Origin: an uncultured Trueperaceae bacterium
GTDB lineage: Bacteria > Deinococcota > Deinococci > Deinococcales > Trueperaceae
NCBI GenBank assembly: GCA_913057685.1
Contig: CAJXOA010000009.1
Coordinates: 1-63,463, forward strand
Length of the DNA stretch: 63,463 bases
Direction of reading: 5' to 3'
The notes beneath the pieces were generated by a model, which searched no databases, was not told the origin of the DNA, and saw only the letters and a list, made by a program, of their open reading frames with translations. Positions 9,296 through 13,187 of this stretch are shown in pieces. Both the position numbers and the translations under genes were made by a program. Numbering within the stretch: the stretch's first letter is position 1; each line of letters opens with the position of its first letter.

Positions 9296-10347
9296 CCGAC
9301 GTCCGTCGCCCCCACGCCGCCCCCCTCCTCGCCACCGGTCGCGGCGACGTCCGAAACGCCGTCGAGGACGGCGTCGGGCAACGTCGCGAGGGCGCGGTCG
9401 AGGAGGTCCGGGCCGGCGCCGGGCCGGTGCGCGCCCTCGCTGAGGGTGCGGCGCCACCCGCGCGCGCCCGGCACCCCCCGCGCCAACGCGATCATCGGCT
9501 TGACGACCGTCGCGAAGCGGGTTCCGCGAACGAGTTCGTCCTCCACGACGTCGCGCATACCGTCGATCACCGTGCGCAACGTCGGCGCGGGGGCGGTCGC
9601 GCCGAACACCCGCCGGTCGACGTCCACCCAACGCATCGGCATCTGGTAGGCGGCGCGCCCCACCATGACCGACGCGACGTCCTCGAGGTGCGCGAGGGCG
9701 CCGTCGAGATCCTGAATGCCGCCGTTCGTCTCGATCACCAGGTCGGGCCGCTCCGCCGCGAGGCGCGCGACCGCGTCGTGCCGAAGGGGGGGAACCGTGC
9801 GGTTCTCCTTGGGGCTCAACCCCTGCAACCAGGCCTTGCGGGCGTGCACCGTGAAGCGGTCGGCGCCGGCGTCGGCGACGACGTCCACGAAGCGGCGTAG
9901 GTCGTCGTAGGCGTCGGCGTCGTCGATGCCGATGCGGTGCTTCACGGTCACCGGGAGGGGCACCGCGGCGCGCATCGCCTCCACGGCGCGCGCGACGACG
10001 TCGGGATGCGCCATGAGGCACGCTCCGAAGCGGCCGCGCTGGACGCGGTCGCTGGGGCACCCGACGTTGAGGTTGACCTCGTCGTAGCCGTACGCGAGCG
10101 CCCGCCGCGCGACCTCGGCCAGCGCGTCGGGGTCGTCCCCGCCGACCTGCAGCGCCAGCGGCGACGTCTCCTCCGCGCGGGCGAGGTGCCGGTCGGCGTC
10201 GCCGTGCAGCACCGCGCCGGTCGTCACCATTTCGGTGTACAGCAGCGCGTGGCGGGTGATGCGCCGCATCATCCGCCGGTAGGGTCGGTCGGTCCACGCC
10301 ATCATCGGCGCGACCGAGAAGCGCGGTGTGGGCGCGCGCGGCGTCAC
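9217..10347 (-). CDS. dusA: tRNA-dihydrouridine synthase A
   Basis: FMN-dependent reductase that makes dihydrouridine in the tRNA D-loop. The DusA opening [20 protein letters not shown] is clear, the catalytic cysteine is in [14 protein letters not shown], and VKHRIGIDD and [18 protein letters not shown] follow. The GTG start lies in the ispH stop (GTGA at 10344-10347). The C-terminus carries a low-complexity tail of about 40 residues (glycine, valine, alanine, serine) that overlaps the convergent DUF62 gene and probably arose by read-through into it. Confidence 0.93.
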
Positions 10348-11381
10348 GGGACGGTCGGCAACGCCCCTCCGGGCGGGGGAACGCGCTTGGGTTTGCGGAA
10401 CTCGATGTCCTCCCACTCCCCCTCCTCGACGACGTCGAGGTCCGGGTTGCGGGCGCGGAACCAGGCGACGACCTCCTGCACCAGATCGTCGGGCGTCGAT
10501 GCGGCGCTGCTCACGCCGACCGTCGCGACGTCCTCGAACCAGGCGGGATCGAGGTCCGAGGCGCGCTCGATGCGGTAGGCGCGGGGCGTGATGCGCTCCG
10601 CGAGCTCGAGCAGGCGCATGCCGTTGCTGGAGTAGGTGCTGGTCACGACGACGAACGCATCCACCCGCGGCGCGATGCTGCGGACGGCGTCCTGCCGGTT
10701 CTTCGTGGCGTAGCACAGGTCGTCGCGCGCGGGCACCACCAGGTTCGGGAAGCGTTCGCGCAACAGCGCGACGGTCCGCATCGTGTCGTCGACCGACAAC
10801 GTCGTCTGCGTCAGGACGACGACCCGTTCGGGGTCGGGCACCTCGACGGTGTGCGGGTCGGCGAGGGCCGGGTCGTGCGTGCGGTTGCCGAGCACCGAGA
10901 CGACGGTGGTGGCGTCCGGCGCCTCCCCGCGCGTCCCGACGACCTCCTGGTGGCGGCTCGAGTCGCCGATCAACAGGATGTGGTAGCCCTCCCGCGCGTA
11001 CTTCTTCGCTTCGCTGTGCACCTTCGTCACGAGCGGGCAGGTCGCGTCGATCGTCGCGAGGCCGAGCGTCTCGGCTCGCTCACGGACGGCGGGCGACACG
11101 CCGTGCGCGCTGAAGACGACGGCGGGGTCGAGGCGTCCTCCGGACGCTTCGACCTCGGCGGCGACCGCCTCGAGTTCGCCGAGGTCCTCGACGAAGTGCA
11201 CGCCGTGGTCGGTCTCGAGGCGCGAGACGACGGTGTCGTTGTGCACGATGGCGTGGTACACGGCGAGGTCGCCGCGTCCCGCCTCGCGGTTGTCGCGCGC
11301 CGCCTCCTCGACGGCGTCGATCGCCATGACGACGCCGGCGCAGAAGCCGCGCGGTTTGGCCAGGTGGACGGTGTCGACCAT
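10344..11381 (-). CDS. ispH: 4-hydroxy-3-methylbut-2-enyl diphosphate reductase
   Basis: Last step of the MEP isoprenoid pathway, a 4Fe-4S enzyme that makes IPP and DMAPP. The three cluster cysteines are visible in [20 protein letters not shown] and [10 protein letters not shown], and the family histidine is in AIVHNDTVV. Length 345 is normal. TACTCT lies 6 bases before the ATG at 11381, giving a leaderless start. It is co-transcribed with dusA. IspD and IspE are at 46505-48081. Confidence 0.97.
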
Positions 11382-11387
11382 GCCGCC

Positions 11388-11393
11388 AGAGTA
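11388..11393 (-). promoter_or_regulatory. Leaderless-type -10, ispH
   Basis: TACTCT on the minus strand, 6 bases before the ATG at 11381. Confidence 0.6.
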
Positions 11394-11466
11394 CCCGCCC
11401 GCGGGCCGCTCCGGCGTCGGCGGGACGGCCGCCCTACCGCACGGCCCCGCGACGCCGCCCACGGGA

Positions 11467-11495
11467 TTGCACGGCCGGCGCTGGGGTGCTAGAGT
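11467..11495 (+). promoter_or_regulatory. tRNA-Ile promoter
   Basis: TTGCAC (11467-11472), a 17-base spacer, TAGAGT (11490-11495). The tRNA starts 13 bases after the -10. Same architecture as the two tRNA-Gln promoters. Confidence 0.75.
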
Positions 11496-11508
11496 CTCCT
11501 CCGCTCGG

Positions 11509-11585
11509 GGGCGATTAGCTCAGCCGGTTAGAGCGCGTCGCTGATAACGACGAGGTCGGTGGTTCGAGTCCACCATCGCCCACCA
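11509..11585 (+). tRNA. tRNA-Ile (GAT)
   Basis: 77 bases with encoded CCA. The acceptor stem GGGCGAT pairs with ATCGCCC, the anticodon stem is CGTCG/CGACG, and the loop CTGATAA gives anticodon GAT. The T-arm is GGTGG-TTCGAGT-CCACC. It stands alone, not in an rRNA operon. Confidence 0.97.
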
Positions 11586-11723
11586 GGGGGGTCCCACCCA
11601 CCCCCCAGAGAGGCTCCCCCGCCTCTCGAATCGAGGGCTCCCCCAGCCCTCTTTCCGGGGGCTCCCCCGCCCCCGGAGGATCCACCCCATCCCGAGAGCG
11701 CGCCCCTTCGGGGGCGCGTTCTC
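11586..11723 (+). repeat. Array of five hairpins after tRNA-Ile, three with a shared C-rich loop
   Basis: Five perfect or near-perfect stem-loops in 138 bases. H1 is 11586-11606 (7 bp, loop CCCACCC). H2 is 11608-11627 (GAGAGGC/GCCTCTC, loop TCCCCC). H3 is 11633-11651 (GAGGGCT/AGCCCTC, loop CCCCC). H4 is 11655-11676 (CCGGGGGC/GCCCCCGG, loop TCCCCC). H5 is 11694-11723 (13 bp with one G-T pair, loop TTCG). Stems differ while the H2-H4 loops hardly change. H5 looks like a terminator stem without a T-run. The array sits between the convergent tRNA-Ile and the protease gene. Confidence 0.75.
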
Positions 11724-11763
11724 GTGGTCGCGGCGGAACGCCGCTGGGTGGGGATGCGTCGTG

Positions 11764-11823
11764 GGCGTGTGCAGGGGGGTGTGCAGGCGTGTGTGGAGGG
11801 GTGTGTGCAGGGGTGTGCGCAGG
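11764..11823. repeat. 12-bp minisatellite, five units
   Basis: Five consecutive 12-base units of the form GGTGTGTGCAGG with one to three changes each. Non-coding, between the hairpin array and the 3' end of the protease gene. An open frame through it is only the repeat translated. Confidence 0.8.
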
Positions 11824-11837
11824 GGGCGGGGGTCGCG

Positions 11838-13187
11838 TCAGCGCGACGCGCCGAACACGTCGCGCTTCGCGCCCAACTCCAACTCCAGGCGGACCGTCGT
11901 CCGGCCGCGCTGCACGGTGAGGTCGACCGGTTCCCCGATCGTCTTGCCGCGAATGACCGCCAACAGGTCGTAGAAGGTCGGGGTCGGTTCGCCGTCGACC
12001 GCGACGATCACGTCCCCCGAGCGCTCGACGTCGACGACGTCGCCCTCCGGGCCGTAGACCGGCGTCTCCTCGAACGAGCGCAACCCCGCCGCCTCCGCCG
12101 GGCCGCCCGGCTGCACCTCGAGGACGATGGGGCCCGGCCGCCGCCCGAACGGGCGTTCCGCGTCGCCGGGCACGTAGTCGAAGCCCGGCCGCCAGGAGAA
12201 ACCGATCACCGGCACGTCGCGCGATTCGCCCGCCGCGATCGCCGTCACGAGCTCGCTCGACGCGCCGACCGGCACGGCGTACGACGCGAATCCGGAGGGC
12301 AGATCCAGCCCCCGCAGGAACGGCGGGACGTAGCCGTCGCCCGACGTGCCCTCCGCCGCGAAACTGATGTAGCTCACGACCCCGATCGCGTCGCCCTCCG
12401 CATCGAGCACCGGCCCGCCGGAGTCGCCCGGCGCGAGCGCCGCGGTCATCTCGATCGTGTCGTCGGCGAAGTCGGCGCGGGACGCCTCGACACCGAGCCG
12501 CACGACCCGCCCCGCGCGCGGCGCGAGCACGTCGCCGCGACTATTGCCGATCGCGACGACCTCGTCGCCACGCCGCGGGGCGGCGTCGGCGAGCGCGATC
12601 GGCGCGACGTCGGCGTCGACGTCGGCCTTCATCCAAGCGAGATCGAAGTAGGCGTCGAACCCGACGAGGTCCAGGGCGACCTCGTCGCCGTCCGCCTCGA
12701 CCCCGACGTAGGCGACGTCGCAGAAGCCGACCGAATCGTTCTCGACGACGTGGTAGGCGGTCAGGACGCCGCCGTCCGGCGTGACGTAGAAGCCGCTGCC
12801 GACCCCGAGCGCGCCGGCCCGCTCGCCGTCCTCGCAGCGCGCCTCGATCCGCAGGGTCGAGGGGCGCGCGGCGTCGTACACGTCGGCCAGCACGCCGGTC
12901 GGCGGCTCGGGTTCCGGCGCGCGGGCCTGCACGTGCTCGAACGTGACCGGCGGCCCGACGCGCGGCGGGAGGAGGCGTTCCCCGAGGTGCGGTGCGGCGT
13001 TCAGCGCGAGCGCGAGACCCAACGCCGCGGCCAGGAGGAACCCGACCGGCCCGCGGCGACGGCGGGGGACCGACTCCACAGGCGGGACCGGCACCAGGTC
13101 GTACCCGGGCACATCGTCCCGCCCGCCCGCGTCGTGCGGAGCGGTCGGGTCGTCCCCGGCGGGGGGCGGGCGGCGTTCCTCGTCCAT
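11838..13187 (-). CDS. Membrane-anchored HtrA/DegP-like serine protease with PDZ domain
   Basis: Trypsin-fold envelope protease for protein quality control. A proline- and charge-rich cytoplasmic tail (1-45) leads into one membrane segment (about 47-65). The protease domain carries His146 (LTAYHVVEN), Asp182 (FDLAWMK) and Ser256 (APGDSGGPV), so the triad is complete. A C-terminal PDZ domain (about 350-440) includes PGGPAEAAGL and GDVIVAVDGEPT. CATACT lies 6 bases before the ATG at 13187, a weak leaderless promoter. It converges on the repeat region after tRNA-Ile. Confidence 0.9.
   Translation of the reverse strand: MDEERRPPPAGDDPTAPHDAGGRDDVPGYDLVPVPPVESVPRRRRGPVGFLLAAALGLALALNAAPHLGERLLPPRVGPPVTFEHVQARAPEPEPPTGVLADVYDAARPSTLRIEARCEDGERAGALGVGSGFYVTPDGGVLTAYHVVENDSVGFCDVAYVGVEADGDEVALDLVGFDAYFDLAWMKADVDADVAPIALADAAPRRGDEVVAIGNSRGDVLAPRAGRVVRLGVEASRADFADDTIEMTAALAPGDSGGPVLDAEGDAIGVVSYISFAAEGTSGDGYVPPFLRGLDLPSGFASYAVPVGASSELVTAIAAGESRDVPVIGFSWRPGFDYVPGDAERPFGRRPGPIVLEVQPGGPAEAAGLRSFEETPVYGPEGDVVDVERSGDVIVAVDGEPTPTFYDLLAVIRGKTIGEPVDLTVQRGRTTVRLELELGAKRDVFGASR

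Follow-up and report, generated by a model that had tools for sequence, protein, structure and literature searches.

What is the role of the row of hairpins that stands directly behind the tRNA-Ile gene of this Trueperaceae genome? The window, that is, the whole 63-kb stretch of DNA analyzed here (63,463 nt), makes up contig 9 in a draft genome of 2.29 Mb (G000), and the gene order at the locus is ispH on the minus strand, tRNA-Ile (GAT) on the plus strand, five hairpins at 11586-11724, and a gene for an HtrA-type protease on the minus strand. The locus was compared with that of a congeneric sister species (G004) and with those of five MAGs from a second Trueperaceae genus (g16). On balance, we lean slightly toward a model in which the array codes for a structured RNA that has not been described so far; it would be the 3' trailer of pre-tRNA-Ile and would probably serve as a C-rich-loop antisense small RNA (sRNA).

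The hairpin array behind tRNA-Ile

A sequence-only reading of this DNA had described tandem hairpins after the tRNA gene, and our analysis recovered five of them behind tRNA-Ile (GAT), at coordinates that were correct within one or two bases (Table 1). An invariant C5 loop, as claimed there, is seen in H2-H4 but not in H1 (CCCACCC) or H5 (TTCG). The C runs in the loops of H2, H3, and H4 are spaced 24 nt apart on unrelated stems. H1 begins at the first base past the CCA of the tRNA, so that the array adjoins the tRNA without a gap; as this leaves no room for a promoter between the two, pre-tRNA-Ile most likely contains the RNA as its 3' trailer. The candidate promoter upstream of the tRNA was not reported by the consensus scan; in g16, a TTGACA ... 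TACACT pair is found upstream of tRNA-Ile. No second copy of the tRNA-Ile at 80% identity or more was found in the G000 assembly. The real start of ispH is probably the ATG near 11380.

Table 1. Features of the tRNA-Ile locus (positions in the window)
Feature	Position	Strand	Details
Upstream neighbor, ispH (LytB)	10344..11462	-	Pfam LYTB
Possible promoter of tRNA-Ile and array	11467..11495	+	TTGCAC, 17 nt, TAGAGT; read by eye
tRNA-Ile, anticodon GAT, CCA encoded	11509..11585	+	ARAGORN; Rfam tRNA 72.3 bits
H1	11586..11606	+	7-bp stem GGGGGGT, loop CCCACCC
H2	11608..11627	+	7-bp stem GAGAGGC, loop TCCCCC
H3	11633..11651	+	7-bp stem GAGGGCT, loop CCCCC
H4	11654..11677	+	9-bp stem TCCGGGGGC, loop TCCCCC
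C-rich linker	11678..11692	+	identical in G004
H5	about 11693..11724	+	long GC hairpin, loop TTCG; probable terminator without T tract
Convergent neighbor, trypsin-like protease with PDZ domain (HtrA type)	11838..13187	-	Pfam Trypsin_2 and PDZ

The predicted fold is far stronger than expected from shuffled sequences, with an MFE of -96 kcal/mol where shuffled sequences average -64.4 (z = -8.35; 0 out of 200 shuffles as low). The array packs three hairpins with C loops into 70 nt vs one on the remaining plus strand of the window, and three or more appeared in 2 of 2000 local dinucleotide shuffles. Within the approximately 1.26 Mb of G000 that was scanned, nowhere but in the array do three or more C-loop hairpins cluster, and there is no second cluster of five hairpins, the C- or G-loop hairpins found elsewhere forming a scattered background; no other C-loop cluster was found there or in 0.4 Mb of the g16 genome G019.

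Several other repeats were observed along the way. Four G-rich 12-bp tandem repeats, GTGTGCAGGGG-like, lie just 3' of the array at 11763-11823 and are absent in G004. Folding a longer stretch brings them into competition with H1 for its CCCCCC arm. G000 also carries tracts of poly-C, each about 47 nt or longer (C7:34343-34411, C27:5754-5822 and C62:1-54), one of which sits at a contig end, and these could be real homopolymers or assembly artefacts. The four tandem hairpins of G019:C1:77432-77528 (L130:17432-17528), built as CGTACCCC-GCTA-GGGGTACG with a period of about 25 bp, are a palindromic repeat of another kind than the C-loop array.

Conservation in a sister species and in a second genus

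Comparison of G000 with G004 revealed zero differences from 11499 to 11694, a segment that covers the tRNA, H1-H4, and the linker, making the array (106 nt from H1 through the linker, 100% identical) as strictly conserved as the tRNA itself. The flanks have diverged, with 90.3% identity for ispH, 86.6% for the protease gene, and 85% for the ispH-tRNA spacer, and indels break the spacers; going outward, the first differences are met 11 nt ahead of the tRNA and within H5. Among the trailers of nine other orthologous tRNAs, 4-16 mismatches per 100 nt or large gaps separate the two genomes. H5 is the only hairpin that varies, and its two substitutions in G004, one changing A-U to G.U and the other G.U to A-U, keep the pairing on the plus strand only.

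The same pattern was found again in g16, where four to five hairpins follow tRNA-Ile, with stems unrelated to those of the G000 array and loops that are mostly C4-C6. The 116 nt of the array are the same in G019, G047, and G048, whose flanks are 9-13% apart; the loops are CCCC, CCCCC, and CCCCCC, with a last hairpin whose CCCCC loop is closed by a U.G pair, and the linkers are C-rich as well (CACCCC, ACCCCC). In G046 and G049, which have diverged further, a stem changed from U-A to G-C around an unchanged CCCCCC, and there is an unchanged CCCCC loop whose closing pair is U.G, C-G, or U-A. In the third stem, C-G was replaced by U-A and G-C by A-U, and the loop drifted to ATTCACCC or ACTCCACC. 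G049 has one extra hairpin at the front of its array. The stem changes in the g16 arrays are thus compensated. All double changes are lost when the pairings are slid; shuffles of the pair counts (128/500 and 56/500) are a weak test because only three distinct sequences are available. A DNA pattern search retrieved the g16 array in the public Trueperaceae MAGs C14-24, S08.Bin162, KA26, and S08.Bin137, with array sequences identical to those of G049, G046, G048, and G047, respectively. The tRNA-Ile of G049 had been missed by the tRNA finder because a contig end splits the gene (G049:C23, L162:1-28); the array behind it is complete.

G.U pairs are present in H5 of G000, in the last hairpin of G019, and in the second hairpin of G046. 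These would be A.C mismatches on the opposite strand, so the RNA under selection is that of the plus strand, co-directional with the tRNA. The earlier proposals of selection on RNA structure and of a small RNA trailing the tRNA are both supported by 106 nt remaining frozen against a 10-13% divergence of the flanking genes, by the recurrence in a second genus, by the compensatory changes, and by the plus-strand wobble pairs. Purifying selection acting strongly on the hairpins, loops, and linkers of two genera is well supported by these comparisons.

Distribution of the array and alternative explanations

In other Trueperaceae, including the congeners G001, G002, and G003, the tRNA-Ile trailer holds one terminator hairpin or none evident, and these array-less trailers drift even when the upstream DNA is 93-95% identical. 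As the array is absent from most congeners and genera, it must be dispensable. Supported branches of the ispH tree force two changes in array presence, pointing to two gains or to a single gain with several losses. The tRNA-Ile of G000 is identical to that of the array-less congeners G002 and G003, so the array was not imported together with a g16 tRNA.

The finding that relatives usually carry a single terminator-like hairpin at the same place, together with the convergence of the neighboring genes, the terminator-like H5, and the CTTTCC that follows H3, could suggest that the row of GC hairpins is a reinforced terminator or insulator between convergent units, one that stops the tRNA-Ile transcript, and the protease mRNA from the other side, in a genome rich in GC and poor in T tracts, its C loops being incidental. 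We regard this as unlikely. No T-tract site was found in 11380-11840, although the scan does not cover T-less terminators. One hairpin suffices in relatives, whose terminators change their loops fast (in the g11 pair, the loops differ although the upstream DNA is 93% identical), whereas the loops and linkers of the array are frozen and H5, the likeliest terminator, is the sole hairpin that varies between G000 and G004. A cluster of terminators, as the sequence-only reading had offered, would by itself leave the frozen loops and linkers unexplained.

The C-rich linkers of g16 and the three to four repeated sites might instead point to the binding of a C-preferring protein (Rho, the KH domains of PNPase or KhpA/B, cold-shock proteins, or S1), with the array acting as a decoy or tagging pre-tRNA-Ile for processing or stability. 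That no set of G-run targets came to light (see below) would also agree with this model. However, a simple C-binder needs no 106 nt of exact sequence, and there is no pointer to any single protein; we consider this quite improbable. Finally, it is very improbable that the array has no function as an RNA and is a recent insertion or recombinant block, its identity reflecting recent transfer, or a by-product of a C-run mutational bias: the patchy presence in two lineages, the two changes forced by the ispH tree, and the long poly-C tracts elsewhere in the genome would fit, but the blocks of identity match the structure boundaries in two genera with flanks diverged on both sides, the stem changes are compensated, there are no other copies, and the tRNA shared with the array-less G002 and G003 shows that tRNA and array did not arrive together.

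Searches for further copies likewise spoke against a mobile palindromic element or a repeat family: none was found in about 1.26 Mb of G000 and 0.4 Mb of G019, the class-wide pattern scan placed arrays only behind tRNA-Ile, and whole-genome model and pattern searches, which were not exhaustive, returned no repeat-family copies. The pattern GGCTCCCCCNCC occurs at 12 sites in G000, two of them inside the array, with the reversed pattern equally frequent; among the other sites that were folded, no C-loop hairpin array was found. A covariance descriptor (R1) of two tandem 7-bp stems with C5 loops and made-up stems, run over 39 genomes of the family, was convincing in G000 and G004 only, these negatives being weak because the known G019 array escaped its first pass, in which 150 candidates per genome were scored. 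Matches to a C5-triplet pattern were mostly poly-C and G+C-rich background. Across 111 genomes of the class, a pattern of the tRNA T-arm followed by two C5 runs retrieved the arrays of g1 (the genus of G000 and G004) and of g16 along with chance matches; a tRNA-Gln pair and, in G004, a tRNA-Ser were also retrieved, but no C-loop array forms when their trailers are folded. Rfam searches at the gathering score and at E up to 10 gave nothing credible except the tRNA, and no literature on small RNAs of Truepera was found.

A candidate C-loop regulator and known systems

If the array is an antisense sRNA, what could it pair with? The sequence-only reading had likened the loops to an anti-Shine-Dalgarno, which is correct only in part. 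The Shine-Dalgarno sequence here is GGAGG (68 of 424 genes vs about 10 at control positions); the C5 loop does match GGGGG, but this motif is not enriched before starts (10 vs 10-17 in controls). It is unlikely that the loops serve as a general anti-Shine-Dalgarno. G runs near starts were conserved in 10 of 16 cases vs 15 of 31 for C runs, which is not a significant difference (p = 0.54). The G000/G004 comparison revealed conserved G5 runs ahead of several ORFs, too few for a claim. One such region, in G000:C21 (L125 near 3315, minus strand), holds a nuoI-like ORF with the ribosome-binding site GAGGGGGGAAGC and a G run that is kept in G004; it is a possible target of the C5 loops, although only a lead. 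Perhaps the regulon is small, or the array binds a protein or some other RNA instead.

We infer the transcription, release, and targets of the array RNA as follows. Transcription would start at the tRNA-Ile promoter and stop at the last hairpin, and the 3' cut after CCA would release an RNA that is about 110-140 nt long and very stable. The three to four C-rich loops of this RNA, kept open by rigid GC stems, could pair with G runs in mRNAs or other RNAs and lower their translation or stability without Hfq, the several equivalent loops providing redundancy. No match to Hfq or ProQ was found in the genome, which fits the Hfq-independent C-loop sRNAs. If, as we propose, the loop matters more than the stem, stems would be replaceable as long as the loops remain C-rich. 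A bolder extension, which we advance as doubtful, is that two Trueperaceae lineages independently grew a multi-hairpin regulator coupled to tRNA-Ile, with stems that turn over, loops that stay C-rich, and a dose tied to tRNA-Ile synthesis, converging on sX13 and 6C. If our favored model of an antisense sRNA is right, the array would be an undescribed RNA of Trueperaceae, C-rich-loop regulators would arise repeatedly and could be built from a tRNA trailer, and regulator output would be coupled to tRNA production in Hfq-free bacteria. The constancy of loops and turnover of stems in two genera is a natural experiment on the needs of such RNAs.

The sX13 sRNA of Xanthomonas has stable stems and several apical C-rich loops (4C/5C; loop 3 is UCCCCCU), is Hfq-independent, and represses mRNAs that carry G motifs near their starts; both these and the C motifs of the sRNA are required (PMC3771888). 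The array shares the stable stems with several C-rich loops, but sX13 is a free-standing gene with its own targets and no tRNA link; no sequence relation between the two was seen. The 6C/B11 RNA of Actinobacteria also carries C-rich hairpin loops in high-GC hosts without Hfq or ProQ, and pairing by B11 is done by the C-rich loop of its terminator hairpin (PMC9569102, PMC12395582). The array is similar in its C-rich loops on hairpins, its high-GC host, and the lack of an Hfq/ProQ match, whereas 6C/B11 belongs to another phylum, has its own promoter, and keeps a conserved, described structure where the stems of the array are replaced between genera. The array was rejected as a 6C RNA: the Rfam 6C model gave no match, either at the gathering score or with E values up to 10, and 6C is found in Actinobacteria, whereas the host belongs to Trueperaceae, as indicated by the named MAGs with the g16 array and by kinship.

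In position, a close parallel is 3'ETS-leuZ of E. coli, a 53-nt RNA that is excised from a tRNA transcript, in its 3' external spacer, and acts as a sponge of RyhB and RybB (PMC8166272). The array would likewise lie in the 3' spacer of a tRNA transcript, from which it would have to be cut; it is directly downstream of the tRNA, on the same strand as judged from the wobble pairs, and before a probable terminator. Differences are that 3'ETS-leuZ is a sponge of sRNAs, has no C-loop array, and derives from tRNA-Leu. LhrC of Listeria reportedly has repeated UCCC motifs in a single RNA and, in this respect, is like the array, but it is said to be encoded by multicopy free-standing genes of a low-GC host. 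By analogy, the array, which belongs to no Rfam family, resembles the C-rich-loop sRNAs in plan, with its several stable hairpins and C-rich apical loops, and the tRNA 3'ETS RNA (3'ETS-leuZ) in position.
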